Below are positions 16,401-43,508 of a stretch of 43,508 nucleotides of DNA, piece by piece. Numbering within the stretch: position 1 is the first letter of the stretch; each line of letters starts with the position of its first letter. A program made the position numbers and the translations under genes. The stretch is from a virus. The notes under the pieces are model-generated. The model was not told where the DNA came from, did not search any database, and saw only the letters and a program-made list of their open reading frames with translations. The DNA is taken from IMG/VR virus record IMGVR_UViG_3300030329_002613, positions 1-43,508 of that record. One strand, 5' to 3'.

Positions 16401-18462
16401 ATGGTTTAGCGCTGTAAAAGGTGAATCAACCAATCTATCTAATTTAGACACTAGAGAGTTTTCAGTTCAAGGTATAGGCAATGCTAGCGCGGTAAGTGGA
16501 CCTAGTGGTTCTATATATGGATGTACCGATGTAACAGCAACTAACTACGATCCTACAGCCACAATTGATGATGGTAGTTGTATAGTTATATCTTATAATT
16601 GTACTCTTAATGGCTGTATTGATCCTGGAGATGGAAGCGGTCAATATAGTACGTGGTGTGATTGTATGGAGCAAGGTAATGGTAGTCTTTTGTCAAATCC
16701 TACCGGAGGTTGTTGTGGGGGAGCTGGATATCCTTTTGGTCAATATGAATCTTTATGTTTAGGTGATCCACAACCACCAACAATATATGGATGTACAGAT
16801 CCTAGTGCTTTTAATTATTACACAGCGGTACAAATTGATAACTGTAGTTGCGTAAGTATAGCATACGGCTGTACAGACCCAGTAGCCACTAACTATAATC
16901 CAGTAGCAACAAATGATGATGGTTCTTGTACTTATTCAGTTTCTGGATGTACTGATCCAACTATGCTAAATTATAATCCAAATGCTACTATTGATGATGG
17001 TTCGTGTATACCTATAGTTTACGGTTGTATGGACCCAACAGCATTAAACTATTATATTAGCGCTAATGCAGATGATGGAACTTGTTTGTACCCAACTCCA
17101 ACCCCAAGTTGTGTTACGCAACCAGTTACGTGGTCATGGGATGGTACGGCGCTCGCGATAGCCACTACAGCATTTGATCCTGCGGTGCTTTTCCCTAGTG
17201 CTACTTCTTCGCATTTACTTACTCAAACTAAAGTATTACGTTCTGATGGAACAGAAGTGTTATATCTACAAACTCATTCGCAATCACCAATTGCTTTTGC
17301 TAATCTTGCAATGACTACATCGTGGACGTGGTCTAATCCTTTCTCTAATATTACACCAGGTAGTTACACGATAGTACAAACTGTTTTTGATGGCGCTACA
17401 CTTTCAGATCCTATACTTTCTCAGTGTAGCACAGGTATTACTATTCCTGCTCCTACCGTAATATCAGGATGTACTAATCCAAGTGCAACGAATTATGATC
17501 CAACTGCAACGATTGATGATGGTAGTTGTATATTAGTGGTAAATGGTTGTACAAAACCTTGTAGTAGTAATTATGATCCAAATGCTACTGTTGATGATGG
17601 CTCTTGTGATCCAGAATGTTGTCATAATGCTCCCACAGCAAGCACTTATCAAACGCATCAAAATCATATAATTGGACCATATACACCCCAAAATCATAGT
17701 AATGATTGTGGAAACTCTAGCGTACCGGGCATGGGTTGTAAGTGCGAAGATATAATACAAGGCGATTATAACCAAGAATGGATAGACGCGGGTAGTCAAA
17801 TTTGGGATGCTACGACAACTTATCAGGGATCAACAACCTGTGACGATTGGGGTAATTGTAAACCAACATTATTAGTTAAACATAATAATGTAATATACGT
17901 TGGGCTTAATGTTGGCTCATCTTATGCCCAACAACAAGGTATCGCACAAAATATTCTAGCACCAATACCAGCTGGTATAGAACCCGGTGTTTTCCCGCAA
18001 TTACAAGCTTTGAATCCCCCAACTTCAATAGAAATTAATGGTCATGTTTACGATTCTTCTGTTCCGGGTGATCCAGATTTTCACATGTATGTGGGTAATG
18101 GGCATATATGGGTTCCGGCTACAAGTTATTATTATAAAGGAACACTTACTTATCCCGAGTGCTGTCAACGTCTTGGTTGTCCAGATGTTACACAGGTAAC
18201 ATTTGATCCGTACGTCAATGAAATTGGAGGTTGGACAACTTCTTTGGCACATTGTGTACCAATCGTGTTTGGTTGTACTGATGACCAAGCTATGAATTAT
18301 TATACTGGCGCGCACATAAATAATAATACTTGTATATATGGAGGTTGTATGGATAATACAGCTACTAATTATTGGAGTGGATTTAGCTACGATTGTACTG
18401 CTGCCTTTGATCCAAATGGAAATAATTATACTACCGCAACTGGATGTTGTACTTATGCTTAA
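10438..18462 (+). CDS. Giant tail/stabilization protein with Cys-Asp repeat extension
   Basis: A 2674-aa virion tail protein. The N-terminal signature FLKGRMNKDLDERLVPNGEY followed by RDALNIEVSTSEGS and GTVQTVMGN marks the tail-stabilization (P22 gp10-like by context) family common in marine podovirus-like genomes. Long beta-rich and Trp/Asn-rich sections follow, including FRFPRFSYRYKYEDGEYSAF-like blocks near residue 520 and, near residues 1880-1980, SKGWTSFKSFIPEIGES and DIWRHHD. The family core appears to end near residue 2010 (FSVQGIGNA). Residues 2028-2674 are an extension with at least eight copies of a GCTDxxAxNYxP...DDGSC repeat, two spacer domains, and other Cys-rich segments. No signal peptide. 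The extension probably faces outward and may bind the host surface. The core call is firm at family level; the exact particle position is inferred. Confidence 0.8.
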   Translation: MPELKHNFLKGRMNKDLDERLVPNGEYRDALNIEVSTSEGSNAGTVQTVMGNKKLSDLNFRFPSPMDTTKCVGKILDEKNDKLYWFVSELGNRPNTPLLQTPEKYGDFTVSDLILEIDIKTDEVRPVVVDTFYSTMELTGYDPNQGDGRWISLDSASWSGNMQYTVHPGMEVDCVDGNGNPVFPEGTAIVDVNLPQFQVKVSNPPIDPADMQNNFALYKIKFENFNRALNFQNKLVNGSTIITGINIIDNLLFWTDNNSEPKKINIDTSKKEREINPYVGNQTGLDFRNDFQTQSVLIVSNTTGTNPGAKTVARGNAWSNTALVPLEEKHITVIRKSPSQALSLVMRNSIRSTKLSGTLDYSNPSGRVALGTTNPNSPPPLLYPNQTKPGTSAPSAFNPFWDYSGNQVKESCWVDFGGPNSRINQIPLLSQGGNPWWASSVPIYEVGDVVIFTTQTFPEEVIRAKVTGRDMKHGSYNLDILSFSGTIGADDKVYDAILEQPDPLFEFKFPRFSYRYKYEDGEYSAFAPFTEVAFLPEDFEYVPKKGYNLGMTNNIRKLVLKDFVDSKSLPKDVVSIDILYKESNSPNVYTVKTITKDDFEWDAISESELAPSDQGRYFGSRGYINITSELIHAILPSNQLLRPWDNVPRKALGQEIAGNRLVYGNYLQNYDMRSNSGSNININLQLSSTSKAVGSDNIGSFNYTPEQNDAKNAYRYSPSKSIKTLRTYQLGVVYRDKYGRETPVFSTDIKKDGGDTSKASLYLEKKLADQQNKLKAQIKNAAPSWAETYKFFIKETSNEYYNLAMDRWYDAADDNIWLSFPSSERNKVDIDTFLILKKEKDNDVFVPDPARYKILAIENEAPLFIKTVEHNLGKLNDNNDKDMFRTSSTSSTGFPVENAGFMYVRSEGFGDDTNFGMGWHESIIKQAKPNLYMRMRTASVTSNWYKIRSISLEQGLGSGSTDMYRIDIEKGVFGPDMNITCSTPNSVNSNSIAAGLALEIKQDVIENRPEYQGRFFVKIYKDDVIVDRLIKPTLEALEYVVQEARDIKYIHTCNDTEDSDGSYTSEGISNWAATNGWDGSGTGPGQDTNVEYIHRENITTTNNSFPPIPTVNDDYETFWSGHPRCWFIDRAHAGRMSHWKSVYQGQACGEVELHHSWTSPFYPENNNGRGIYNNGYNMHLSWHRPGERALWSCNDWDNSGSDWDGIRNMFDNTQIDEVSFISKLTAPGTLFRWREDPDQHIYITKATWQPNPNAGLNFGKHLYNFYDWYGNPAYPRVKGFFFQYAHRNRFHVEFERLADGQPMGATGGKHNAQYSPVNDPGTVGWFDSDGVNLAEKGTCSPNSAHDNDEQGCEDAGGTWTWASDAFYADATYASSNNVAIGSWKTTAPTTKAPGIRQDGHGGSRKYKDNAETNPGAWFNQAGEVTLEIIEPLVRGADLENASTNPAIWETEPKEDIGLDIYYEVGQIYPVEINNKTNELFAPIGSVVECWRSTNTSWYSNNETWDSSNGGFTTGTDPTPAGNIPLGQHGANWTPPIRVKSWNDNIVTLEDEAGNLFNNNSNWPNEHIMPEDHLVFRRPDGSKTSALIGDATNINGAEYTVRRDVHNRTVTLPWHNCYSFGNGVESDRIRDDFNQVKIDNGSKASTTLDEPYLEERRGSGFIWSGIYNSTSGINNLNQFIQAEKITKDLNPSYGSIQKLHQRDTDLITLCEDKVLKVLANKDALFNADGNANLTATENVLGQTTPFAGEFGISKNPESFVSESFRAYFTDKQRGAVMRLSRDGLTPISEVGMKDWFADNLRTSQQLIGSYDDKKSTYNLTLVDIQTVIPQNTLPNQQGSGGPVLGPALSSTQSSSVYAVDNSKTISFSEKSKGWTSFKSFIPEIGESLNNNYYTFKAGDIWRHHDKTVSRNNFYDNQHNSIVNVLFNDLPGSVKSIRTLNYEGSQARITQNLQDAEYYNNEAKFGWYVDNIKTDLQDIKQLEFKGKEGKWFSAVKGESTNLSNLDTREFSVQGIGNASAVSGPSGSIYGCTDVTATNYDPTATIDDGSCIVISYNCTLNGCIDPGDGSGQYSTWCDCMEQGNGSLLSNPTGGCCGGAGYPFGQYESLCLGDPQPPTIYGCTDPSAFNYYTAVQIDNCSCVSIAYGCTDPVATNYNPVATNDDGSCTYSVSGCTDPTMLNYNPNATIDDGSCIPIVYGCMDPTALNYYISANADDGTCLYPTPTPSCVTQPVTWSWDGTALAIATTAFDPAVLFPSATSSHLLTQTKVLRSDGTEVLYLQTHSQSPIAFANLAMTTSWTWSNPFSNITPGSYTIVQTVFDGATLSDPILSQCSTGITIPAPTVISGCTNPSATNYDPTATIDDGSCILVVNGCTKPCSSNYDPNATVDDGSCDPECCHNAPTASTYQTHQNHIIGPYTPQNHSNDCGNSSVPGMGCKCEDIIQGDYNQEWIDAGSQIWDATTTYQGSTTCDDWGNCKPTLLVKHNNVIYVGLNVGSSYAQQQGIAQNILAPIPAGIEPGVFPQLQALNPPTSIEINGHVYDSSVPGDPDFHMYVGNGHIWVPATSYYYKGTLTYPECCQRLGCPDVTQVTFDPYVNEIGGWTTSLAHCVPIVFGCTDDQAMNYYTGAHINNNTCIYGGCMDNTATNYWSGFSYDCTAAFDPNGNNYTTATGCCTYA
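16519..18333 (+). repeat. Cys-Asp repeat family in the tail protein C-terminus
   Basis: Coding repeats of 21 residues with two cysteines, starting GC[TM]D, middle NYxPxA, ending DDGSC. Copies lie at 16519-16581, 16789-16851, 16867-16929, 16945-17007, 17023-17085, 17467-17529, 17545-17607 and a degenerate one at 18271-18333; a further broken copy starts near 18343. The third to fifth copies are in tandem at a 78-base period. Other copies are separated by unrelated domains of about 120-220 residues. Similar repeats fill the secreted protein at 35270-38512. Confidence 0.92.
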
Positions 18463-23206: not shown

Positions 23207-26200
23207 ATGACAGAATTACAAGCTAAAGAAATTATAAGTTATGGTAGATCTCAAGGGTTTACCAAACAGCAGATTATGTCTCTTTTAAATACACGTGCTC
23301 AACAGTTAAAAGAAGCGCAGGCTAAAGCTGATGCCCAAGCTAAAGCCGACACCCAAACTAAAACTGCTGAAACCGAAGTTCAAGCTGAAACTGAAGAAGT
23401 AAAACCTTATGCTTTTAAAACTAGAGCCGAGAAAAAACCGTGGACTATGAAGGAGGAAGCAGAAAAAGTATCATTAGCTAAAGAGGAAGAAGAAAAAGAA
23501 AAAAATAAAAAATTAGAAGAAGAAGCAAAAATTGCTAGTAAAAATGCTATGATTAACGCGGCTATAGATATGAATCCTACTTATCAATTGTTTAAAAAAG
23601 GATCAGAATTATGGCGTGAGTATTTTCCGAAAGATGAAGAGGGAGAAGTGGATGATGGTTTATCTGCAGAGGAAAAAAATAAGAAATATAAAGACACAGC
23701 GGAAAAACATGGGCATAATTTATATGATCAAGATTCGATTGAATCATCTTATTTTAATCTAATAATGCCTAGTTTGAAGGATGCTGCGCTTGCTGGTGTT
23801 CCAAGTAGCGGCGCTGACGCAAAAAAAGCATTAGCTTTACAAATGAAATTTTCAGGAAAATTTCCAGGTGTTGGAATAAATACCGCTACTGGAGAAATTG
23901 ATTTTAAAATATTAGACGCAGATATAGATGCTTCAATAAATTATTTTCAAAACGAAAAGAAAAATAACGCGATTCAAGAATCAATTTTAAATTATCAAAA
24001 TGATGATGGGACAGTAAACCTTGAGCAACAACAAATTGATATTGAGCAAAATGGTAGAAACGCTGGTTATGGATTAGAATACGACCAAGATATAATAGCA
24101 TTACAAGACGCTGGTAAGCATGAAGAGGCGGATAAACTAGCTAAAGAAAAGGGTTATGTAAAACTTGAAGATAGAGAGACGGGTAAACTTATAGGTTACG
24201 TAGAGGAAGATGTAGAAGAAACAGCGCAGATGACAGCAAAACAGTATACCCCAACAACCGTACAACGCATGTATAAAGACGCGTATTTTGATTTAGTTGG
24301 TATGTCTAATATAATCAACGAAGCTGACGATCAAAATATCATGGGTGCAGCTGGTTTGTTGCAAAAAGGCGTAGATTTACTTACTGGTAACTTTGCTGAA
24401 ACAAAACAAGCGGCAAAATTAATAGCTGAACAAGGTGATTTAGTAGCTGGCTTAAAAAAGCTCCCTGGTAATTCGCGGTACGCGAAAGAGTTTAATCAAA
24501 AGCTAATGCAATTCAAAGCAATGAATAGGGCGTTGCAAATAAATATGGATCCTAGCGCGTTAGAAGAAGAAAATATTATTAAAGAAAAATTTATTGCACC
24601 TGCTTTTGGTGTAACAACAAATGACGAGTATGTAGAAGCGTTTAATAATATTAAAGATTTAAATAATATAAGGTCTATGAGTAGTGTAGAAAGACCTGAT
24701 GATTCTATTTTATTTGGACATATATTAAAAGGTATTGCGCCTAAAGGATATCCTATTAGAAATTTAGTAGAAGGTGGGACAGAGGTAACTAGAGATTTAC
24801 TACCATTAATGGCAGAAGTTGCTGTAACTAAGAAAGTTGGTGGAGCAGCGGTATCGCGTTTTGCAGGTAGACTTGCTGCGATGGGCAAAGCTAAAAGTAA
24901 AAGTAGAACATATAGAAACTTTATAAATCTTTACGCTGCAAACGCAGCTAAAAAAACAAGTGATATTGTAAAAGCAGCAGAAAAAACTAGACTTGGTGCA
25001 TTAGGAGTAAGCGCAGCGAAAGAAACCGCGGTGTTAGCTGGAGCAGATATAGTTAGAAAAGAAATAACATCTCCATTGTTTGGATTGGAAGCGCATCCAT
25101 TTGTTATAAATACTGAAACGGGTGATTTTACCCCAACGTTTGCAGCAGCTTTAGGAGCTGGTAATTCTATAGCTAAAGGTGTTACAAGAGATTGGGCTAG
25201 AATGAATAAGGGTTGGTTTGGAACAAAAATGGCTCAAATTAGTGCATTTAATCCATTCCCAACAACTACAGCAAGATGGACTCAAGGTGTTGTAGGTGCT
25301 AGTGCTGGTACAGGTAGTTTTATGTTTGCTAATTTTGTTCAATCAAATCTTGATCAATTACGAAGTGAACACGGGGGTTTTTACAATGTTGATAATGTAA
25401 AGAAAAAGTATCTTGACGAAGTTGATGATAATGGAAACCCGATTTATACTGATGAGCAAGCTACTAAAATGGCTCAACAAGAGTATGATGAAATATTTGG
25501 CTTTGGCCACATGGCAAAAACTTATATTGGCATGAGAATGCTTGGTACGATACCAAAAAGTCAAAACCCATTTGGCGCTTTGGGTACTACTGCAGAGGCT
25601 ATGAGAACTGATATTTTAGCCATGAAGGGATCTACTAAATACACAAGAAAAGCCGCTAAATTAATGGGTATAAAAGAAGGTTCAGACCCAGAAGTGATAG
25701 AGAAAACCAAAGAGGTTTTAATATCTAAAGCTAAGAACGAGACTGAGGTTAAAAAAATAGAGGCGGCAGCGGAAGAATTACACACGTATAATGATATTGC
25801 TCAAGCTAAAAAAATGGCTAAAGAACATAACGTTTACGTAAGTGGTATAATGAACACATCTACATTGGGTAATAAAATTATTTCAGGTCAAAAATTAACA
25901 ACGAAAGAAGCTCAAAAATTTGCTGAATTAACTGAATATGAATACAACTTTATTAAAGCAAAATTAAAACAAAGAGGATCTTCTGTAGAGCAATTAGAAG
26001 TATTGGACGCTCAAAGAGAAGCGTACAAAGGTGTTAGTGATTTAATAGAAGGAGAAAGAATATATGGACCAGCAAAGGCCAAGACCTTTAAGGACATGTT
26101 AGATTACCAAGATATCACTAGTGAAATTAAATCTTTAAAGGAGCAAATAAAAGAAAATCCAGCATCTGAAGGAATAAATAAAAATAAAATAAAAGCTTTA

Positions 26201-29200
26201 GAAGCTAAAAAAGAAGCTCTAAACGAGAAGATGGGTAATGATTACGCTAACTATAAAGCCGAAGTAAAAAGAAAAGCTAAGCAATATAACGATTTAATGA
26301 AGGTTTATAGTGGGCGATTAGAAGCTGATGGTAGGTATGAAGTTATGGGTATAATGCGTTATGCTGAAAAATTAATGCAAAGAGACGCGAGTTTAAAAAC
26401 TATAGAGCAAGCTATGAAAGTAGCTAAGCAAAGTGAAGGTTTTTATGACAGGTATACTGATCAGATATTTATAAATAAAGAAGTATCTAATCGTAATATG
26501 AATCCTGGTACAGCTATGCACGAGGTTATACATCGAGTATTAAGAAATTCATTAAAAAATAAAGAAGGTATATTAACAGAAGCGGGTATAAATGTTATTG
26601 AATCTTTTAGAGATATAATAAAAGCAAAAGATCCTAGAGCTTATGAGATTATAAATAAAAGAGTTGATATTAATTATAAGTACGATTCAAATGGTAAAGA
26701 AAAACCTAAAGAACAATATTACGAAGAATATTTAAATACATATTTCGATGCTTTGACTCGTGAGCAAATCAAGTACAGTAAAACTACTGGTGAAATACTT
26801 TCGGATTTTGTAATGCCTTTTGTTAGAAAAGTACCAGCGTATCAAAATTGGAGACGGGGTAAAAAATATTCTACAGAAACTGGGAAAGATCTTTACAATA
26901 TGATGAGAGACTTTCATAAGAGTAGTAAAGAAGGTCAAGTTGTAGAAGGAGCTGTTGAACTTGGTAAAGAAGGGCCTAAAATGGAAAAGGGTGAAGGCCC
27001 AGTACAACAAGCAAAAGATATACAGTTAAGAGTAGAAGAACAACAAATAAAAAGATTAGGTTATAAAAAGCCAGAAAGAAACCCAGGGGAAAATGACGCT
27101 GCTTACGAAGCTAGGGTAAATGAAACTCCAGTCGCAGAACTTAAAAGACTTACGAAAGCAGAGTGGCAAAGAGAAAATATGAGTGACGCGTATTTGAAAT
27201 TATTTGGAGATAAAGCAATAGGTGTAAAGGGATTATTAGACGGTGTAATATTGGGAGGGAAAACCCCAATTAGCGGTGAGAACGTGTTTGGTAAATCTAA
27301 AGAAAAATTCGTAGAAGATGTTAAAGGCGAGGTTAAAGAGTGGTTTATGAAATTTGACCCAACTTTAAATGATAACTTATCCGCTTACATGAACCTTATG
27401 GTCAGTAAGAAAAAACCTGGTATTCTTGATAAATATGAAAAAGAAAAATTCGCAAAAGATACAGAAGGACGAAAAGAAGATAAAGGTGGAATTCCAAAAG
27501 ATTATGGAGCTGACTTAACTAAAACTCCAGAAGAAATATTAATAGCAAAACAAGAGAGAGAAGCTAGAAAAAAACTAGAAGCTGAAAGAACTTTTAAAAA
27601 AGAATTTGAAAAAGAATTTGGTGATAAAAAAGAATTATTTGATAATGTTAAAGATGTTGTTATAAGAACTTGGAGTGGTAAACTTCCAGAAATAACATCG
27701 GAAAAATTAAAGCCCGCTTTACAAAAAGATTTTAGAAGAGAGCTCATGATCCCAATTAAAAATACAATGGGTACTGGTCCTGAATATATTAAGTTTTTAG
27801 AAAAATTCTATAAATTAAGACGTCATATTCCACAAAAAACTTGGGTTAGATTTGAAAGAAGACAACCTAGAGATGAGAGAATTTTTACAGAAGTTGAGAT
27901 TGAAAGCATGAGTCGTAAGCAAACTAAAAGGGCTATAGAAGAAGGAAGAATACCTAAAGGTACTAATTTAAACGCTGGTAATACTTTGTGGAGATATAAA
28001 GATCCTACACTAGAACAATTTATACAATTCTTCATGGGTGTAGGTACTAAATCTCCATCGTCATCTAAAGGTACTCGCAAGACAGCTTTAGCAGAGGAAA
28101 TTGGTGTTGAATGGGCTTTTGATGCTACATTCGATGCTCTTAGAAACCCGGCGGTTATTAGTAAGAGAGCTGAGGTAAATTCATTGTTAAAAAGAAAAAC
28201 TGTAGAAAACGAATTAGAAGTAATAGGTAAACAATTAGAAAGAAACCCAGATATACAATTTGCAAAAGATGTACTTGAGAAAAGTTCTAGAGAAACTCAA
28301 GATTATTTTTATGCAAATAGACCGGAATTTTTAAATAAAATATACGAGAAAGGTGCTACACCAGAAGGTATAAGTGTTGCTTTTGATATAGCTTATCCAG
28401 CAGGTATAAAAACTAAAGATGGACTAAAATCTTTGAAAAAAGGTATAGTAAAAGAATATCACAAATTGCTAAAACCGTGGTTTGAAATAGATGGAAGATA
28501 TAAAGAACAAAAAAGAGATAGTAAATTCCAAACTATAGAAGAGTATATTGTTAGTACAGATATAGCTAAAGATAATATTGCGGTAAAGAAATTTTTTGGA
28601 ACCAATGATAATACCGCACTTCATAGAAATATCCCCCAAAGAAAACAATACGCAGAATTTAATAGAGATAATCTTTCGATAAAAAAAGAAAATTTAGCTG
28701 TAAAAAAATATGGTAAAAAGTTTGAGGATTTAAACCCTAAACAAAAAGAAGCTGTAAGAGATCAAGCTGTCGTTGATGCTATTAGAACTAAAGGACATGT
28801 AGAGAATGGTGATATCGGTTTTTCTAGATCTATGGTATATTTCAGATCAAAAACAGATAAAGTAAATAAATTATTAAAACAAGGAGTTTGGGCTGGTGAT
28901 CTTGTTGGAGATTATTTATCGGCAGTACACCCAAAACTTGTAGATTACAAAAGACATAAAGCTAATGTTTCAAAAGGTTTACCACCTAGAATTGAATTAA
29001 TATTTAAAGATGGTAAGAGTAGATTTCATAAAATGCCTGAAAGTTCTGTATATGACGGTAAACAAAAGACTACTAAAGAAATGGTTGAGGGTAATATATC
29101 TGAGAAAGAAAAGGCCATGAGAAAAGAGAATGCAGATTTTCATTGGGAGCAAATGATAGAAACTTTTGAGATCGCATCTGATTTGGTAAAAAGTAGTAAT

Positions 29201-32200
29201 ACGCCATATAGTAAAAATGAGTATGCAATGTTGACGTCAGGATTTTTAGGTAATATGAAAACATCTCTAAGGTCTTCTGCATTACTTACGTATTTACCAG
29301 TTAACCCTCCAACCACACGGTTATACGATGCTAGTGGTAAGAAGTTTTGGGAATATGAACATGGACAACCGGCAAAAGATATAGCGTTAATTTTAGCTGA
29401 TCATTTTTTCAATGGGAATAAAGTTGATTTAAAGAAGTTAAGAGAAGGTTATGAGGTTGGTATTATTCATCGTGATTTCAATAATAATATTGGTAGATTA
29501 TTTAAAGACCGAATGAACTTTGATTATAAGATAGGTGACAAACCTCCAAAAAGATGGTATAGTATATATACTGGAGCTGGACCGTCACATGCTACAAGGA
29601 ATATTTATACTGGTGAAATACACGGAGAAATTCAAGCAGCTAATTGGAAAAGAATTAAAGCAAATACGCAGAAGATATTAAGACAACATAATGCTACGGC
29701 TAAACAAATCGGTATATTAGAATCTAAAGACATTAAACAAGCCGCTGAAAATTCACGCGCTATAGATAGAGCTCTAGAATTAGGTAGAAAGTTAAATAAA
29801 GAAAGAAGAGGTATTAGTGTTTGGGATTTAGATGACACGTTAATTAGAAGTAAATCTGGAGTTAGAGCTAGAATACCTAATCCGGAAGGAGCGCCAAAAC
29901 CTGGTAGAAAAGTTATATTCTTAGCGGGTGGAGCTGGTAGTGGAAAATCAAATGTTGTTAAACAATTAGGTTTAGAAAAACAAGGATTTAAGATTGTTAA
30001 TCAAGATATATCATTAGAATGGTTAAAAAAGAATTCTGGATTACCAGAAAATATGAAAGATCTTACGCCAGAACAATTATCTAAATTAGGTAAATTACAA
30101 TGGGAAGCTAGAAAAATTGCCGCTCGTAAGCAGATGAAGTTTCAAGGTAAGGGAGATGGTATAATTGTTGATGGTACTGGCGGATCTATGAAAGTAATGG
30201 AGAAGCAAGTTAAAGAATTCAAAGATAAAGGATATGACGTACAAATGGTTTTTGTAGAAACATCTTTAGAAACAGCTTTAGCTAGAAATAGAGAGAGAAA
30301 AGAACGAACGTTAAAAGATAAAATAGTAATTAGAAATCATGAAAAAGTACAGAGTAATAAAGAAGGTTTTAGGAAGCTATTTGGTAATAATTTTGCAGAA
30401 GTTAAAACAGACAATCTCAAAATAGGTGATCTTATGCCAGCTGACCTTGTAACGAAGTTAGATGCGTTTACTAAAGGTTATGAAAATCGTAGACTAACAG
30501 CGGAAGAGTTTGCTATAGAAGGTGGTGATATACTAGGTAAAGGAGGTAAATTTGATTTCGTAGAATTTAATGTTATTACAAAGGGAGAAAAAGGGCCTTT
30601 CTTTAATAAGGCTGTAAAGAGAGTTAATAAGTTTGGTAATGAACATAATTATATCTTAACAGCTAGACCACCCGAAGCCGCACCACACATAAGACAGTTT
30701 TTGAAATCACAAGGACTAGATATACCTTTAGAAAATATAACTGGACTAGGTAATAGCACGGCTCAAGCTAAAGCATTATGGATGTTAAAAAGGTTTGAAG
30801 AAGGATATAATGATTTCTATTTTGCTGATGATGCTATTGCCAATGTAAAAGAAGTTAAGAATGTTTTAGATCAATTAGATGTTAAATCTAAAGTTCAACA
30901 AGCTATGCAATTTAGTAAGGACAAATTAAATAGTGATGTTAATAAGATTATGGAAGGCTCGCTAGGAGTAGAAGCTGGAAAAATATTTACCAAAGCAGAG
31001 GCTAAAGTAAGAGGCGTAGATATAAAAAGAAGAAGAATATTTATGCCTGATTCAGCCGCTGATTTAGAACTATTAATAGAACCTTTGTACGGTAAAGGAA
31101 AAGAAGGTATTAAAAACAAAAAATGGTTTGAAAAGAACTTCCTTAAACCTTGGGAAAGAGGTGTTAACGATTTAAACACTGCTAGACAAACTATACTTAA
31201 TGACTACATGTCATTACGTAAGATGAACAAAGATGTTGTTAAAAGATTAGATAAAGCTGTTGAAGGTACTAACTTTACTAATGATCAAGCGATAAGAGTT
31301 TACATTTGGAATAAAAATGGTTTTAAAATTCCTGATTTAGCAAAATCATCAGAAACAAGATTAGTTGAACACGTTAAGAGTGATCCTAAGTTATTAGATT
31401 ACGCTGAAAATATTACTAGATTAACTAAAATAGAAACTGGTCTCAAAGAACCAAAAGCTGAATGGTGGGCAGAAACTTTAGCATCTGAAGTCAGTGAAAC
31501 TGGAAGGACTGTTGATAGAGCTAAATACATTAATGATTGGATAGAGGCTAAAAATGAAATATTTTCCGAAACTAATCTCAACAAAATGGAATCGAAGTTA
31601 GGTACAAGATGGAGGGAGTCCATGGAAGATATGTTAAATAGAATGGAGACGGGTAGAACTAGAGGTAGAGATATGGGTAGAATAGGTAATCAAATAATGA
31701 ATTATCTAAATGGATCTGTTGGTGCAATAATGAACTTAAATACTAGATCTGCAACACTACAGTTGATATCTACTGTTAACTTTATTAATCACGCTGAAAA
31801 TAATCCTTTAGCTGCTAGTAGAGCATTTGCTAATCAAAAACAATATTGGAAAGACTTTATGTTTATAATGAACTCTGATATGTTAAAACAAAGACGTGCT
31901 GGATTAAAGATAAATGTTACGGAAGCTGAACTTGCCGCAGCTGCAGAAGGTAAAGGTAATAAAGCTAAAAGAGCTTTAGCTTGGATATTAAAACAAGGTT
32001 ATATTCCTACAAAAATTGCAGATAGTTTTGCAATATCAGCTGGTGGTGCTACATACTATCGTAATAGAATTAGAATGTATGAAAAACAAGGGCTCGATGT
32101 TAAAACCGCGGAGAAAAAAGCTTGGCAAGATTTTCAAGCGATAGCCGAAAGAACACAGCAATCATCAAGAGCCGATCTATTATCTAAACAGCAAACGTCA

Positions 32201-33229
32201 TTTGAAGGTAGATTAATATTACCATTTTCAAATACACCTTTACAGATGAATAGAATTATGTTAAAAGAAATGTTAGATTTATCTAAAGGTAGATATGAAG
32301 GTGCTTTTGGAGAAAATTCTTTTACTAATAAGATGAGTAAGATAGCTTATTATGGTGCTATTCAATCTTTAATATTTGCAGGATTACAATCTGGATTATT
32401 CGCTTTAATGGCTAATAGCGATGATGAAGAAAAGATTACTGAGAAAAAAGTTAGAACAATAAACACGATGACAGATTCTTTTTTAAGAGGTATGGGTATA
32501 CAAGGCGCTGTATTATCTGGTGTTAAAAATGCTGTGCTTAAATTTATAGATGAAAATGAAAAAGGCTTTAGAGCAGATTATGATGAAGTTGGAGAGGCAT
32601 TATTAAATATATCGCCAACTATAGGTTCTAAAATTACTAAACTAGATGGAGCTGGAAATACTTATAATTACAATAGAAAAGAAATAAAAGAAAAAGGTTT
32701 AAGTTTAGACAATACAAAAGGCATAGAAGCTAGTACTCAAGCTATAGAGGCTATAACAAATGTACCTGTAAATAGAGCTCTTCGTAAAGTTCAAAATATT
32801 CAAGGGGCTTTAGATAAACAAAACGAAGCTTGGCAAAGGGTTATGATGTTATTAGGTTGGAGTAAGTGGGACGTTGGAGCTATAGAAAAGAAAAAGCCAA
32901 AAACAAAAGAAGAAAAAAAGATACAAAAAGAGAAAAAAGAATCTGAAAAGATTAGGGAAAAACAAAAGCAATTAAATAAACAAATTGAACAAGAAAAAAT
33001 ATTAGAGAAAAAAGGTTTATTACAAAACCCAACATGTAGTAGAGTTAGTAGTAAAGGTGTTAGATGTAAAAACCCTGTTGACAAAGCGGGACAAAGATGT
33101 ACTATACATGAAAAGGTAGAAGGTAGAAAAGATGGTAAGAAAGTTCAATGTAAGAAGGTCAAAAAAGACGGTAAAAGATGTAAAATGCAAACAAGTAATA
33201 AATCAGGTTATTGTTATTATCACGATTAA
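23207..33229 (+). CDS. 3340-aa giant virion protein with protease, kinase-phosphatase and zinc-finger segments
   Basis: Probable ejected polyvalent protein. Order of what is visible: an N-terminal Ala/Lys/Glu coiled coil (residues 1-110); helical regions; a zinc-metallopeptidase site AMHEVIHRV with H1105, E1106 and H1109; a basic helical middle; at about 2205-2550 a HAD phosphatase motif I WDLDDT (D2207, D2209), then a P-loop GGAGSGKS (2241-2248, K2247) with IIVDGTGG and basic ARNRERKER after it, then HAD motif II LTAR (T2485) and acidic motif FADDA (D2541, D2542); a hydrophobic segment near 3045-3070 (GAIQSLIFAGLQSGLFALMA); and two Cys/His fingers at 3277-3301 and 3315-3339. No RNA-polymerase DxDGD motif was found, so I do not call it a virion polymerase. 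The P-loop part resembles zeta-toxin/polynucleotide-kinase-like enzymes. Confidence 0.75.
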   Translation: MTELQAKEIISYGRSQGFTKQQIMSLLNTRAQQLKEAQAKADAQAKADTQTKTAETEVQAETEEVKPYAFKTRAEKKPWTMKEEAEKVSLAKEEEEKEKNKKLEEEAKIASKNAMINAAIDMNPTYQLFKKGSELWREYFPKDEEGEVDDGLSAEEKNKKYKDTAEKHGHNLYDQDSIESSYFNLIMPSLKDAALAGVPSSGADAKKALALQMKFSGKFPGVGINTATGEIDFKILDADIDASINYFQNEKKNNAIQESILNYQNDDGTVNLEQQQIDIEQNGRNAGYGLEYDQDIIALQDAGKHEEADKLAKEKGYVKLEDRETGKLIGYVEEDVEETAQMTAKQYTPTTVQRMYKDAYFDLVGMSNIINEADDQNIMGAAGLLQKGVDLLTGNFAETKQAAKLIAEQGDLVAGLKKLPGNSRYAKEFNQKLMQFKAMNRALQINMDPSALEEENIIKEKFIAPAFGVTTNDEYVEAFNNIKDLNNIRSMSSVERPDDSILFGHILKGIAPKGYPIRNLVEGGTEVTRDLLPLMAEVAVTKKVGGAAVSRFAGRLAAMGKAKSKSRTYRNFINLYAANAAKKTSDIVKAAEKTRLGALGVSAAKETAVLAGADIVRKEITSPLFGLEAHPFVINTETGDFTPTFAAALGAGNSIAKGVTRDWARMNKGWFGTKMAQISAFNPFPTTTARWTQGVVGASAGTGSFMFANFVQSNLDQLRSEHGGFYNVDNVKKKYLDEVDDNGNPIYTDEQATKMAQQEYDEIFGFGHMAKTYIGMRMLGTIPKSQNPFGALGTTAEAMRTDILAMKGSTKYTRKAAKLMGIKEGSDPEVIEKTKEVLISKAKNETEVKKIEAAAEELHTYNDIAQAKKMAKEHNVYVSGIMNTSTLGNKIISGQKLTTKEAQKFAELTEYEYNFIKAKLKQRGSSVEQLEVLDAQREAYKGVSDLIEGERIYGPAKAKTFKDMLDYQDITSEIKSLKEQIKENPASEGINKNKIKALEAKKEALNEKMGNDYANYKAEVKRKAKQYNDLMKVYSGRLEADGRYEVMGIMRYAEKLMQRDASLKTIEQAMKVAKQSEGFYDRYTDQIFINKEVSNRNMNPGTAMHEVIHRVLRNSLKNKEGILTEAGINVIESFRDIIKAKDPRAYEIINKRVDINYKYDSNGKEKPKEQYYEEYLNTYFDALTREQIKYSKTTGEILSDFVMPFVRKVPAYQNWRRGKKYSTETGKDLYNMMRDFHKSSKEGQVVEGAVELGKEGPKMEKGEGPVQQAKDIQLRVEEQQIKRLGYKKPERNPGENDAAYEARVNETPVAELKRLTKAEWQRENMSDAYLKLFGDKAIGVKGLLDGVILGGKTPISGENVFGKSKEKFVEDVKGEVKEWFMKFDPTLNDNLSAYMNLMVSKKKPGILDKYEKEKFAKDTEGRKEDKGGIPKDYGADLTKTPEEILIAKQEREARKKLEAERTFKKEFEKEFGDKKELFDNVKDVVIRTWSGKLPEITSEKLKPALQKDFRRELMIPIKNTMGTGPEYIKFLEKFYKLRRHIPQKTWVRFERRQPRDERIFTEVEIESMSRKQTKRAIEEGRIPKGTNLNAGNTLWRYKDPTLEQFIQFFMGVGTKSPSSSKGTRKTALAEEIGVEWAFDATFDALRNPAVISKRAEVNSLLKRKTVENELEVIGKQLERNPDIQFAKDVLEKSSRETQDYFYANRPEFLNKIYEKGATPEGISVAFDIAYPAGIKTKDGLKSLKKGIVKEYHKLLKPWFEIDGRYKEQKRDSKFQTIEEYIVSTDIAKDNIAVKKFFGTNDNTALHRNIPQRKQYAEFNRDNLSIKKENLAVKKYGKKFEDLNPKQKEAVRDQAVVDAIRTKGHVENGDIGFSRSMVYFRSKTDKVNKLLKQGVWAGDLVGDYLSAVHPKLVDYKRHKANVSKGLPPRIELIFKDGKSRFHKMPESSVYDGKQKTTKEMVEGNISEKEKAMRKENADFHWEQMIETFEIASDLVKSSNTPYSKNEYAMLTSGFLGNMKTSLRSSALLTYLPVNPPTTRLYDASGKKFWEYEHGQPAKDIALILADHFFNGNKVDLKKLREGYEVGIIHRDFNNNIGRLFKDRMNFDYKIGDKPPKRWYSIYTGAGPSHATRNIYTGEIHGEIQAANWKRIKANTQKILRQHNATAKQIGILESKDIKQAAENSRAIDRALELGRKLNKERRGISVWDLDDTLIRSKSGVRARIPNPEGAPKPGRKVIFLAGGAGSGKSNVVKQLGLEKQGFKIVNQDISLEWLKKNSGLPENMKDLTPEQLSKLGKLQWEARKIAARKQMKFQGKGDGIIVDGTGGSMKVMEKQVKEFKDKGYDVQMVFVETSLETALARNRERKERTLKDKIVIRNHEKVQSNKEGFRKLFGNNFAEVKTDNLKIGDLMPADLVTKLDAFTKGYENRRLTAEEFAIEGGDILGKGGKFDFVEFNVITKGEKGPFFNKAVKRVNKFGNEHNYILTARPPEAAPHIRQFLKSQGLDIPLENITGLGNSTAQAKALWMLKRFEEGYNDFYFADDAIANVKEVKNVLDQLDVKSKVQQAMQFSKDKLNSDVNKIMEGSLGVEAGKIFTKAEAKVRGVDIKRRRIFMPDSAADLELLIEPLYGKGKEGIKNKKWFEKNFLKPWERGVNDLNTARQTILNDYMSLRKMNKDVVKRLDKAVEGTNFTNDQAIRVYIWNKNGFKIPDLAKSSETRLVEHVKSDPKLLDYAENITRLTKIETGLKEPKAEWWAETLASEVSETGRTVDRAKYINDWIEAKNEIFSETNLNKMESKLGTRWRESMEDMLNRMETGRTRGRDMGRIGNQIMNYLNGSVGAIMNLNTRSATLQLISTVNFINHAENNPLAASRAFANQKQYWKDFMFIMNSDMLKQRRAGLKINVTEAELAAAAEGKGNKAKRALAWILKQGYIPTKIADSFAISAGGATYYRNRIRMYEKQGLDVKTAEKKAWQDFQAIAERTQQSSRADLLSKQQTSFEGRLILPFSNTPLQMNRIMLKEMLDLSKGRYEGAFGENSFTNKMSKIAYYGAIQSLIFAGLQSGLFALMANSDDEEKITEKKVRTINTMTDSFLRGMGIQGAVLSGVKNAVLKFIDENEKGFRADYDEVGEALLNISPTIGSKITKLDGAGNTYNYNRKEIKEKGLSLDNTKGIEASTQAIEAITNVPVNRALRKVQNIQGALDKQNEAWQRVMMLLGWSKWDVGAIEKKKPKTKEEKKIQKEKKESEKIREKQKQLNKQIEQEKILEKKGLLQNPTCSRVSSKGVRCKNPVDKAGQRCTIHEKVEGRKDGKKVQCKKVKKDGKRCKMQTSNKSGYCYYHD

Positions 33230-35269: not shown

Positions 35270-38200
35270 ATGAAAAATTTATTATTACTATTATTACTAC
35301 CATTATCATTACTTGGACAAAACACCTGGGTAAACTTTAAAGTGCAATATGATTTCTATGGAGTTCAGGAATCTAATTTCTTTATGGTTAATGATAGTTC
35401 TGGGCAACAAGTATTTTATCATCAACCAACAGTGTCTTATGAATATTTAGATACAACTATACAATTACAATCCGGTAATTATACTGTATCGTTAACAGAT
35501 AATTATGGTGATGGTTGGACTTCAAATTTACCATCTTGGTTTAAGATGGAGAACACTTGTCAAGGAATGATGATTGATTGGCAGTTGCAAGGACTTAGTT
35601 TCTTTTTAAGAGATACAACTGTAAACATAATGCCTTGTCCACCTCCTTATGGCGGTTGTTTAGACGTGATGGCTTTAAATTATGATTCATTAGCAAGTTT
35701 CGATGATGGTTCCTGTATTTACCCACCGTGTAACGGATTAGATACATTCTACGTATTAAACTATTGCCAAGGAACGCAAAACAAAGTTCATTATAGATGG
35801 ACGAATATGCCAAATCCTAGTTGTAGAATGGCGTATTATACTAGGACAACAGATCCCAATACACTGGGTAACACTTGGTATCCTTATCCTTCAAATTGGT
35901 CTAATACAGGAGTTATATTTAGTAATTCTCAAAACAATACAACATACTATTTCTTAGGTATGTTAGCTGATTCAAGCTTAACAGATACGCTAGTAGTGAC
36001 AACACAAGAGTGTATACCTGGTTGCACAGATCCTACTGCTATAAACTATAATCCATGGGCTAATGTAGATGATGGGAGTTGTCAAATGCCACCAGCAAAC
36101 TGTGTTGCAGGAGAATCTAATATAGTAGTAACTGTAATTCCAGATACATATCCAGGAGAAACATCTTGGGAAATAAAAGATACAAGCGGTGCAATATTAG
36201 CATCATCACCACCATATAGTCAAGTTGGAATTCCAGTAATAACTGAAACTTGTATACCTAATGGCACGGTTATAGAATTTACTTTATATGATTCATTTGG
36301 AGATGGTTTGTGTGGATCGTGTTATGGTGGAGTTGATGGTACAGCGTTGGTCCAAACATTATGCGGTGATACTATATTATCAATAATACCTGGTGATGCT
36401 AATTTTGGCAATGATACAACCGCTCAATATACGGTAGCGCCTTGCGTACCTAATATGATTTATGGTTGTACAGATCCTAATTATTTAGAATATAATCCTC
36501 AAGCAAACGTAAGCGATAGTTCTTGCGTTACACCAGTAATATTAGGTTGTATAGATTCAACGTCGCCAGATTATGATTCTTTAGCTAATAAAATGCAAGT
36601 TATTCCACAGTGTCAATATACACTTGTTATAACAGATGAAGCTGAAGATGGATGGTTTGGTAGCTGGTTAGGATTATTACAAGATTCAATAGCTTTAGGT
36701 CCATTTCAAATGGGACCAAATGATGGTTATTCAGAATCATTTACTATTAGTTTAAGTGCTTTAAGTCCTGTTGAGGTAATGTTCTTTTCTCCAGGTAACG
36801 CTGCAACAACAGCTAGTCAGTGTGGTTTTTATTTAATAGGACCAGAAGGAGATACAACAATATCAGGTGGTACAAACGCTTGGACAGATCCAATACTTCA
36901 ATTTCCTTATAGGTATAATGGAGTTCCTTATTGCGGCGATTATTGTACTGATGGAGTATTTGGATGTATGGATTCAACCGCTTTGAATTATGATTCAACA
37001 GCAAACATGCCAGATATATGTATAGCAAAAGTATTTGGATGTACTAATACGCTAGCGTTTAATTATGATTCTCTTGCTAATGTTGATGATGGTAGTTGCG
37101 TAGCAATTGTAATAGGTTGTATGGATTCTACAGCATTTAATTTTAATCCATCAGCAAATACCAATGACTCGTCTGCTTGTGTTCCGGTAATATATGGTTG
37201 TATGGATGACACTATGTTTAATTACAATCCAGCGGCAAATACTAGTGATAGCTCATGTATACCAATAGTATTTGGTTGTATAGATATGTTAGCGTTTAAC
37301 TATAATCCTTTGGCTAACACAAGTAACAATTCGTGTATTCCGTTTATATATGGATGTACTGATATAACTGCTTTTAATTATGACCCATTAGCTAATACTA
37401 ATGATAGTTCTTGCATACCCGTAGTTTATGGCTGTATAGATGCTATGATGTTTAACTACGATCCTTTAGCAAATACAGATAACGGTAGTTGTATACCGTA
37501 CTTATACGGTTGTATAGATTCTACTATGTGGAATTACGATCCGTTTGCCAATACAGATAACAACACGTGTATACCTTATATTTACGGTTGTACTAATCCT
37601 ATAGCTATAAACTACGATCCATTTGCTAATACAGACGATTTTTCTTGTATACTTCCTATTTACGGTTGCATGGATAGTACGGCTTTTAATTACGATCCAT
37701 TAGCAAATGTGGATAACGGAAGTTGTGTACCGATAATATTAGGTTGTACAAACCCTATTGCATTAAATTATTGCGATAGTTGTAACACAGATGATTTTAG
37801 CTGTATACTTCCAATATATGGATGTACAGACAGCACAATGTTTAATTATAATCCCTTAGCAAATGTCGATAACAACTCTTGCGTCCCTTATATTTATGGC
37901 TGTACTGACCCTAGTATGCTTAACTATAACCCACAAGCTAACACAGAAGATTTTAGCTGTATTTCTTATATTTACGGTTGCACTGATAGTACCGCTCTTA
38001 ATTATGATTCGACAGCTAATACTGACAATGGTTCGTGTGTGGCTGTGGTTGAAGGATGTATGGACCAGTCTGCGTACAACTATGATGTTACGGCTAATGT
38101 TAATGACTCTGCTTCTTGCTTATATGATGCTGGTTGTATCACTGGTGCGGGTAATCCTTATTGGCTCAATAACCCTTGTTACGCCTGGGTAATCAGCGTA

Positions 38201-38512
38201 GATGATTACTGCTGTGAGAACGCTTGGGATGAAATATGTCAATCAACTTATGACTATTGTTCTAATAGTTGGACAGGTCCTGTATTATCAAGAGACGTAG
38301 AAGAGAATATAGTAGTTTACCCTAATCCGGTAGATGAAACAATTAACATAAATAAAAATGTTGACGTAACGATTTATAATATCCTAGGGGATGTCGTTAT
38401 ACGTAAAACAAATACAAACACGTTAGATGTATCCAGATTGAGTCCTGGGACTTACAATTTACAAATAATGTGTAATAATAAAATAGTGAATAAGACAATT
38501 ATAAAAAAATAA
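35270..38512 (+). CDS. Secreted 1080-aa T9SS cargo with 19 Cys-Asp repeats
   Basis: Has the full signature of a type IX (Por) secretion substrate. An N-terminal signal peptide MKNLLLLLLLPLSLLGQ is followed by three copies of a GDGW-type beta domain (near residues 77, 341 and 456; DNYGDGW, DSFGDGL, EDGWFG), 19 GC[TIM]DxxxxNYxPxAN...SC repeats, mostly in tandem from 36962 to 38119, a Cys-rich unit ending CCENAWDEICQSTYDYC, and a C-terminal sorting domain at about residues 1009-1080 (VVYPNPVDE, VTIYNILGDVV, LDVSRLSPGTYNLQI, terminal KTIIKK). The motifs YPNP, NxxG and GxYxL define the type A sorting domain. It is flanked at 1 and 5 bases by phage genes, so it belongs to the phage. It should be exported by Sec and then placed on the host surface by the host T9SS. 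Confidence 0.88.
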   Translation: MKNLLLLLLLPLSLLGQNTWVNFKVQYDFYGVQESNFFMVNDSSGQQVFYHQPTVSYEYLDTTIQLQSGNYTVSLTDNYGDGWTSNLPSWFKMENTCQGMMIDWQLQGLSFFLRDTTVNIMPCPPPYGGCLDVMALNYDSLASFDDGSCIYPPCNGLDTFYVLNYCQGTQNKVHYRWTNMPNPSCRMAYYTRTTDPNTLGNTWYPYPSNWSNTGVIFSNSQNNTTYYFLGMLADSSLTDTLVVTTQECIPGCTDPTAINYNPWANVDDGSCQMPPANCVAGESNIVVTVIPDTYPGETSWEIKDTSGAILASSPPYSQVGIPVITETCIPNGTVIEFTLYDSFGDGLCGSCYGGVDGTALVQTLCGDTILSIIPGDANFGNDTTAQYTVAPCVPNMIYGCTDPNYLEYNPQANVSDSSCVTPVILGCIDSTSPDYDSLANKMQVIPQCQYTLVITDEAEDGWFGSWLGLLQDSIALGPFQMGPNDGYSESFTISLSALSPVEVMFFSPGNAATTASQCGFYLIGPEGDTTISGGTNAWTDPILQFPYRYNGVPYCGDYCTDGVFGCMDSTALNYDSTANMPDICIAKVFGCTNTLAFNYDSLANVDDGSCVAIVIGCMDSTAFNFNPSANTNDSSACVPVIYGCMDDTMFNYNPAANTSDSSCIPIVFGCIDMLAFNYNPLANTSNNSCIPFIYGCTDITAFNYDPLANTNDSSCIPVVYGCIDAMMFNYDPLANTDNGSCIPYLYGCIDSTMWNYDPFANTDNNTCIPYIYGCTNPIAINYDPFANTDDFSCILPIYGCMDSTAFNYDPLANVDNGSCVPIILGCTNPIALNYCDSCNTDDFSCILPIYGCTDSTMFNYNPLANVDNNSCVPYIYGCTDPSMLNYNPQANTEDFSCISYIYGCTDSTALNYDSTANTDNGSCVAVVEGCMDQSAYNYDVTANVNDSASCLYDAGCITGAGNPYWLNNPCYAWVISVDDYCCENAWDEICQSTYDYCSNSWTGPVLSRDVEENIVVYPNPVDETININKNVDVTIYNILGDVVIRKTNTNTLDVSRLSPGTYNLQIMCNNKIVNKTIIKK
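36962..38119 (+). repeat. Tandem Cys-Asp repeat array in the T9SS cargo
   Basis: Fifteen consecutive copies (four more scattered upstream between 35650 and 36600) of a unit of about 78 bases, 26 residues: GC, variable pair, NYxPxANT, a D/N/S stretch ending SC, then a five-residue linker ending in Tyr, Phe or Gly. DNA copies have diverged at many third positions, so the array is old or selected at protein level, not a fresh expansion. Confidence 0.92.
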
Positions 38513-42419: not shown

Positions 42420-43508
42420 TTATAAGCTTGTTATCTCGCATGATCCACCGGCACAAGCTAATTCACCTGATAGATCAGTATTGTCAACCTCTTCATTAAC
42501 ATGTTCAAGATTTACGTCATGTAATTTAGAAACCAACTTTTCAAACTCCTCTTTAGTTACATCTTCAAAAGGAGCTTGCGTGTATGTACCACCATCAAAT
42601 GGTAATACCGAAAGACCATTATAACAATCTCTGTTTTTCCACATCCACTCACCAGCTTTTTTCCATTCGTCTTCTTTCAAACTTACTGTTGCAGATACAT
42701 TGTGAGTGTTTGATCCGGTTCTATGACCTGATTTAACCCACTCGGTTGCAACCTGTTTAACCCGCTTCAATAAATCGAAAGCAGATTCAGTTCTCAATAT
42801 AGAACCTTTTGGTGCTGATTGTGGTATTTCAATAACAGCAGTGTCGTGTGGTCTAAAATACTCATCCTTTACTAACTCTGGATGATATGTTAAAAGATAA
42901 TTATATATTGCTTCATTTTTACCTACACGAAGTCTTCTAATATAATAATCATTATGCCAAGCATGAATACCAGAAGAAGTACCAAGTACTAGAGATGTAG
43001 TTCCTGCAGGTTTCACGCAGGTAGTTCTAGCAGCTTTATTAATACCTATTAATTTAGCTACTCTAGTATTCTCACGTTTTACAACGCTTGCAGCTTTCTT
43101 CATATCTAACTTCAATACCTTTTTTGAAGCGATACCTGTCATTGATACTCCTATAAGAGCATCTTTTTCAGTGGTCTCTTGCCATATTTCTCTTAGATAG
43201 TGGAATTCCGTATAACCTGCTTGAAGCGTTCCAATGAAGGCCGCTGCTTTAACTCGGTTGTTTAGGTCTTCCTGGTCTGTGACGTCACTAACATTAACTT
43301 CACACAAGTTACAGAATTGGTACGGCCTTAACGCAATTTCACAACATGGATTGGTTCCCCAATCTTTATCGTGGTTAAAGTATATGCCAGGCTCGCCAGC
43401 TCCGGATAATTCAATACGTTTCCACAGATCTAAGAAAAACTCTTTAGTAATCTTATGTCGCATAAGTACCGCAGAGTTATTTGCTCTACCTCTTTGTGGG
43501 TTTTCTTC
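42420..43508 (-). CDS. nrdJ: Class II (B12-dependent) ribonucleotide reductase, 5' end outside the window
   Basis: Reduces ribonucleotides to deoxyribonucleotides for phage DNA synthesis. The visible C-terminal 362 residues run open through the right edge (the Met at 43463 is internal). Counting from that Met: the finger loop NPCCE carries the thiyl-radical C40 and E42, C51 lies 11 residues later as does the second active-site Cys (C408 to C419) of the Lactobacillus leichmannii enzyme, CVKPAGTTSLVLGTSSGIH is the phosphate-binding region, and the end CAGGSCEITSL holds the C-x4-C shuttle pair. This pattern indicates the monomeric adenosylcobalamin-dependent type. The first reducing Cys and the cobalamin contacts lie partly outside. 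It leads a leftward operon with the OMP, two-helix and H1-like genes. Confidence 0.88.
   Translation of the reverse strand, partial: EENPQRGRANNSAVLMRHKITKEFFLDLWKRIELSGAGEPGIYFNHDKDWGTNPCCEIALRPYQFCNLCEVNVSDVTDQEDLNNRVKAAAFIGTLQAGYTEFHYLREIWQETTEKDALIGVSMTGIASKKVLKLDMKKAASVVKRENTRVAKLIGINKAARTTCVKPAGTTSLVLGTSSGIHAWHNDYYIRRLRVGKNEAIYNYLLTYHPELVKDEYFRPHDTAVIEIPQSAPKGSILRTESAFDLLKRVKQVATEWVKSGHRTGSNTHNVSATVSLKEDEWKKAGEWMWKNRDCYNGLSVLPFDGGTYTQAPFEDVTKEEFEKLVSKLHDVNLEHVNEEVDNTDLSGELACAGGSCEITSL

Follow-up and report, generated by a model that had tools for sequence, protein, structure and literature searches.

In the window (the whole stretch of DNA analysed, 43,508 nucleotides long), the giant protein P0001 carries a complete P-loop kinase nested in the flap turn of a HAD phosphatase. 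The nesting, the single insertion site, the conservation of both catalytic sets, purifying selection and the switching of slot contents were all computed directly. We consider it probable that P0001 is a virion-delivered effector of the polyvalent kind, a kinase-phosphatase whose HAD cap slot takes interchangeable enzyme domains. The constant piece of P0001 would then be the HAD, a small open (C0-type) phosphatase related to phage Pnkp-type phosphatases, and its flap-hairpin turn would be the exchange slot, holding a Pnkp/zeta-like kinase here and left empty or filled by an ADP-ribosyltransferase (ART)-like domain in relatives. The features concerned, all on the plus strand, are as follows.

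23207..33229, +, giant ORF P0001, 3340 aa, a single open frame that follows portal, structural and tail genes
29807..29878, +, HAD N-terminal piece, aa 2201-2224: first core strand, motif I and first flap-hairpin strand
29822-29839, +, WDLDDT, HAD motif I, aa 2206-2211 (D2207, D2209, T2211)
29879..30478, +, insert at the C1-cap site, the turn of the flap hairpin, approximately aa 2225-2424, about 200 aa, absent in 188/279 relatives
29906..30409, +, P-loop kinase domain, aa 2234-2401, from Pfam, fold match and hhalign
29927..29950, +, Walker A GGAGSGKS, aa 2241-2248 (K2247)
29999..30019, +, N-x-D-x-x-x-E motif; D2267 corresponds to the catalytic D35 of T4 Pnkp and L2270 to R38
30284..30310, +, lid RNxxRxER (R2360, R2364, R2367), identical in 65/65 and aligning with the T4 and Cth Pnkp lid
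30479..30904, +, HAD C-terminal piece, aa 2425-2566: second flap strand and motifs II, III (K2522) and IV
30656-30670, +, LTARP, HAD motif II, aa 2484-2488 (T2485, R2487)
30821-30835, +, FADDA, HAD motif IV, aa 2539-2543 (D2541, D2542)
30905..32878, +, C-terminal module, aa ~2567-3224, with the HAD the best conserved part of P0001

The initial annotation had noticed WDLDDT, GGAGSGKS, LTAR and FADDA within one giant protein, and each was found at the residues it had assigned in this single frame. K2522 provides motif III, which was absent from that list, and completes the HAD set. All four motifs are thus present, and in the structure model the core strands end at the motifs, as in other members of the HAD superfamily. 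Furthermore, D2207, D2209, T2211, T2485, R2487, K2522, D2541 and D2542 do not vary among the 87 aligned relatives, 65 with the kinase and 22 without it. In one kinase-bearing HAD (L006/L118), 11 residues have been lost in frame and with them most of motif IV (GEGYNDIYFAD); this is either a naturally inactive phosphatase or an assembly error.

The same interrupted unit occurs in ten viral contigs at 61-71% identity. A search with the C-terminal half of the HAD alone found 549 contigs, and in the best 80 of these motif I mostly lies 22-24 aa before the query, so that the HAD is whole. After three further HAD searches and the removal of identical sequences, 279 HADs could be measured. The distance from motif I to TAR is 76-79 aa in the uninterrupted forms (188 of 279), 277-281 aa where a kinase fills the slot (78) and 210-269 aa where an ART-like domain does so (12), with a single case of another insert; some of the kinase-bearing and ART-bearing sequences were gathered by searches directed at these inserts, so 188/78/12/1 are not natural frequencies. 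The interruption is proved by the relatives that carry the same HAD without an insert. In addition, the interval from AEEF to TAR is 51 in 201/201 measured HADs and that from TAR to motif IV is 53 in 276/279; since these other intervals hardly vary in length, insertions occur at one place only. The record is metagenomic, and the same appearance might have arisen from faulty assembly or from motifs matching by chance in so long a protein. Yet the same junctions and open frames recur in 78 distinct sequences from many different samples, which refutes this explanation and leaves its probability practically nil.

The structure models place the insert precisely. The uninterrupted HAD of one relative (L013) was predicted at pLDDT 86, with a hairpin of strands E28-31 and E37-40 after motif I. 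The HAD-kinase unit of the window, for which the initial annotation had proposed a structure prediction and a fold comparison, was modelled with AlphaFold at pLDDT 92.9 and pTM 0.85. In this model the first core strand (E13-18) is followed by the flap pair E30-35 and E236-241, with the kinase between them; this pair corresponds to E28-31 and E37-40 of the uninterrupted HAD, and the later elements match one to one. The insert is accordingly bounded by the two strands of the flap hairpin, at a site common to all inserts, and inserts in the middle of this hairpin are C1 caps by definition (PMC8069645). The motif order and strand topology of the predicted model would fit a HAD site. The suggestion that the kinase sits in the phosphatase as a cap is therefore borne out, both by the uninterrupted relatives and by this mapping of strands. 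PNKP, for its part, is listed as an open C0 enzyme (PMC8069645). When the model of an isolated uninterrupted HAD was compared with the PDB, HADs were among the top hits, all of them weak and none reaching an E value of 0.001.

The contents of the slot differ among the relatives. Two of the ART inserts (L020 and L087) resemble ART-PolyVal PF18760 at sub-threshold scores, and four others that start with YYHGTS (L025, L178-180) are tentatively called ART from a sequence pattern. Two further relatives (L057/L062) have extra inserts resembling low-complexity linkers. The BFVD database holds relatives at 59-61% identity, A0A218MLT5 (uncultured virus) and A0A7S9STY3 (Virus NIOZ-UU157), which are named UDP-GlcNAc kinase or uncharacterized; the nesting is unmentioned in the listed names. 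These relatives are already in UniProt, unrecognised. Among the interchangeable domains that fill the slot the kinase is only one; most relatives leave the slot empty, and the architecture occurs widely.

That the stretch between the HAD motifs is a real kinase, as the initial annotation held, is confirmed by profile searches. Residues 2235-2377 match AAA_33 (1.3e-9) and Zeta_toxin (2.4e-9) in Pfam, both over the curated cut-offs, with 37-40 bits against 22.3 for Zeta_toxin, and in PHROGs the kinase matches the polynucleotide kinase family phrog_505 (5.9e-7). The catalytic residues are identical in 65/65 kinase-bearing relatives with the exception of the serine after the Walker lysine, which is replaced by glycine (GSGKG) in 26 of the 65 P-loops. 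Glycine at this position is found in adenylate kinases. The nearest solved fold is Clostridium thermocellum Pnkp (4gp6, E 1.3e-7, TM 0.75 over the target), followed by T4 Pnkp and, close behind, zeta toxin. Against the T4 Pnkp kinase, hhalign gave an E value of 8e-9 over a region reaching from K15 and D35 to the lid arginines, with K15 paired to K2247 and D35 to D2267; the P-loop, the catalytic aspartate and the lid arginines of a T4-type Pnkp are all present in the window kinase.

T4 Pnkp (PseT) is also a single polypeptide that joins a P-loop kinase of the same fold to a HAD phosphatase of a linked family. The two proteins differ in that T4 Pnkp has kinase and phosphatase in consecutive order, as the initial annotation correctly contrasted, whereas in the window the kinase sits within the flap turn of the phosphatase, and the pair forms part of a 3,340-aa structural-module protein. 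Moreover, while the positions of K15, D35 and the lid arginines are kept, R38, which we take to be the acceptor-binding arginine of T4 Pnkp, is replaced by Leu2270. The equivalent residue is leucine in 65/65 kinase-bearing relatives and phenylalanine, tyrosine or isoleucine in stand-alone relatives, so that the whole kinase family is non-Arg here. The stand-alone kinases of pelagiphage HTVC008M (AGE60463), Melnitz (QZI95068) and freshwater viruses (L166-L170) share 31-38% identity with the nested one and keep all of its catalytic motifs, namely N-x-D (as the full N-x-D-x-x-x-E), RNxxR and T-G; they are single-domain genes of 220-270 aa, annotated as hypothetical. The Melnitz kinase (L172) begins with MKTFAELQE, which we presume to resemble the capsid-targeting sequence of T4 internal proteins, and could be head-packaged. 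In Agrobacterium phage Atu_ph07 (AUZ94865, L174), a related kinase follows an ART-like N-terminal region (YRGM...STS), which is another kinase-ART pairing.

The phosphatase is likewise connected to the Pnkp family, by a less direct route. The C-terminal half of the window HAD has a weak match to phrog_415 in PHROGs, a family matched by 38 of 45 uninterrupted relatives (best 4.3e-9) and, at 3e-24, by the phosphatase domain of T4 Pnkp. Stand-alone phage HADs of phrog_415 (jumbo phage LR756500 and L198) are proteins of 178-187 aa with similar motif spacing and flap and an empty slot, and the LR756500 HAD matches the window-type HAD over its full length (profile E 2e-9). Conversely, direct pairwise alignment of the HAD with T4 Pnkp covers motif I only. 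Pfam HAD models were matched by 24 of the 45 uninterrupted relatives, below threshold; no PNKP-specific model was among the matches of these 45, and no swiss-army-knife HAD model among the 23 Pfam families matched by the 45 members at E<=1. A sequence search of the PDB with the HAD profile returned nothing useful.

Together, these comparisons raise the possibility that the nested pair is a topologically rearranged Pnkp, a true 5'-OH kinase and 3'-phosphatase that heals nuclease-cut RNA or DNA ends after entry. The kinase fold and its alignment with the T4 and Cth enzymes, and the link of the HAD to T4 Pnkp through phrog_415, speak for it, as does the invariant T-A-R of motif II, whose arginine presumably compares with R213 of T4 Pnkp. 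However, the position of R38 is never arginine in the relatives, stand-alone kinases included, and most relatives keep the HAD without any kinase. The Pnkp kinship that the initial annotation had suggested thus holds for the kinase fold and may extend to the HAD through phrog_415, but does not reach the acceptor arginine or an alignment of the HAD beyond motif I. RNA-ligase genes were also compared: they occur in 4 of 66 kinase-bearing and in none of 61 kinase-free records (Fisher p 0.12), records here being fragments. The direction is that expected of a repair enzyme, and phage HADs of both the PNK-HAD and the stand-alone type serve RNA repair (PMC7824862), but the co-occurrence is rare and not significant, and the link to RNA repair by this route was rejected. 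A scan with PF09511 gave no matches and is uninformative because the controls also gave nothing. Overall, we regard a rearranged Pnkp as a serious candidate that falls somewhat short of an even chance.

Alternatively, the kinase might be an effector of the zeta type whose phosphorylation target is a small precursor of the cell wall or some other molecule of the host, with the HAD as a mere carrier that acts separately. The Zeta_toxin family is matched in 65/65 kinase-bearing relatives (best 8.9e-14), on a par with AAA_33, and a BFVD relative at 59% identity bears the name UDP-N-acetylglucosamine kinase, although this UniProt name is probably automatic. The same slot is used by ART-like domains, and zeta-like kinases are described in polyvalent proteins (PMC5512222). 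Against this, polynucleotide kinases are the best structural matches, and a catalytic HAD is retained in every aligned form, those with the kinase included. The zeta-like alternative that the initial annotation had left beside Pnkp is consequently upheld by the Pfam scores, which equal those of the PNK-like family, but less so by the fold, and we judge it unlikely, if still worth weighing.

Both enzymes evolve under constraint. Mean pairwise identity is 0.72 for the kinase and 0.67-0.73 for the HAD, against 0.19 for the linker before the HAD, and close pairs give dN/dS values of about 0.06-0.11 (kinase) and, for the most part, 0.05-0.15 (HAD); both are under purifying selection. The terminase of the window is shared by 27/27 records tested (73-90% identity), and on the terminase tree the presence of the kinase needs 3-5 changes. 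A single clade of kinase-bearing phages is rejected on this tree (p 1.3e-113), in which a kinase-bearing record (G002) and a kinase-free one (G022) are sisters with support 100/97. Close relatives therefore differ in kinase state, and the content of the slot switches among them, through either recombination of the P0001 gene or gain and loss. The HAD tree likewise rejects a single clade of ART-bearing rows (p 1.4e-55); with this short HAD piece, the kinase insert could have arisen once, a hypothesis that the tests do not reject (p 0.25 and 0.12). A second HAD background, with KKIRVFDFDDT as motif I region, has kinases with a different flap (L187, L188, L231-L279).

Such switching between close phages, the several unrelated inserts at one turn and the linker-like additions in L057/L062 would also be expected if the slot were a neutral landing place, an insertion-tolerant surface turn into which inserts are recombined without coupling to the HAD. 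This is difficult to reconcile with the strong purifying selection on both kinase and HAD, and the kinase insert is nearly of one length in all 78 sequences. In addition, the kinase-bearing HADs of the main lineage have a special flap, with G2218 in 65/65 and R2220 in 62/65, that is not seen in empty HADs, though it could equally reflect common descent. A neutral slot appears rather improbable to us.

The probable reading of P0001 as a virion-delivered effector draws on its genomic setting. Upstream of the gene lie terminase, portal, virion structural and short tail fibre genes. The terminase of the record shares 45% identity with that of Flavobacterium elemo podoviruses, and Elemovirus has a matching gene order in which the position of P0001 is taken by gp18, a 3694-aa 'structural protein'. 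P0001 is a giant protein of the virion module in a group of marine phages. By blastp of P0001, its C-terminal module shares 44-78% identity with other giant proteins, whereas the part before aa ~2134 is highly variable and mostly unalignable with them. The C-terminal module had no match in cultured phages, the phage collection searched contained no cultured Bacteroidetes podovirus with this HAD, Pfam found no domain beyond the HAD/insert unit in three other giant proteins, and an RNA-family scan of the whole window gave no matches.

Several other observations were made in P0001 and around it. At residue 1105 (26519-26542, +), HEVIHRVL (HExxH) may be a peptidase motif of the zincin-like kind known from polyvalent proteins; its region has no Pfam match. 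The C-terminal end of P0001 (33035-33229, +) has two Cys/His-rich knuckles of the CxxxxxxGxxC...CxxH type, DUF5763-like (8e-4). Elsewhere, a 2674-aa protein (10438-18462) carries at least 8 GCTDPxAxNYxPxATxDDGSC-type repeats in its last quarter (16516-18300, +). A 1080-aa protein (35270-38512, +) ends in a Por_Secre_tail domain (PF18962, 8.9e-12; type IX secretion C-terminal sorting) and is phage-encoded with a host Bacteroidetes secretion signal. At the edge of the window, on the opposite strand (42420-43463, -), lies a ribonucleotide reductase fragment (phrog_367, 2.5e-65).

Polyvalent proteins (Iyer et al. 2017, PMC5512222) are giant multidomain effectors that presumably enter the host along with the DNA; they adjoin late virion genes and exchange domains such as ART-PolyVal (PF18760), other ARTs and zeta-like kinases. 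P0001 resembles them in uniting several unlike enzymatic domains in a single large protein encoded next to late virion genes; it differs in its HAD and in its domain-in-domain slot, neither of which came up when that paper was searched by term. Known C1-capped HADs such as phosphoserine phosphatase and P-type ATPases likewise carry their insert midway along the flap hairpin (PMC8069645). Their caps, however, serve the HAD, by covering the substrate or, in P-type ATPases, by binding nucleotide, whereas the occupant of this slot can be exchanged and represents an entire enzyme family in its own right.

As an effector of this kind, P0001 would be packaged and ejected with the DNA, as suggested by the position of its gene and the label of Elemovirus gp18. 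The kinase would transfer phosphate from ATP through D2267 and the HAD would remove phosphate through D2207. Tethered to each other, the two may work as a single kinase-phosphatase very soon after entry, on phosphorylated molecules of the host or the phage. As a substrate class we favour nucleic-acid ends most, at somewhat less than even odds and with acceptor binding unlike that of T4 Pnkp, and a 5'-kinase/3'-phosphatase activity of the nested pair, as first proposed from the motifs, is plausible on sequence grounds. Other substrates are nonetheless conceivable, given that the acceptor arginine is missing, that Zeta_toxin equals the PNK-like family in score and that RNA ligase genes are scarce. 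A bolder version, which we consider doubtful, is that the HAD fold is a plug-in socket in an ejected phage protein: recombination would swap kinase or ART at the C1-cap site, and the occupant would both work alone and gate or redirect the phosphatase, so that one polypeptide could add and remove phosphate on the same host target.

Each domain by itself is already known. Among open-licence papers, no kinase was found as a HAD C1 cap, nor any exchangeable enzymatic cap slot. The architecture shows where and how phage effector proteins gain activities: at one loop in a catalytic domain, which is also where HADs acquired their caps in cellular evolution. Whole enzymes enter and leave this loop among phages with 85-90% identical terminases. 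The acquisition of caps, usually inferred from deep time, thereby becomes directly comparable and testable, and the natural pairs with and without the kinase offer a means of learning the role of the phosphatase early in infection.
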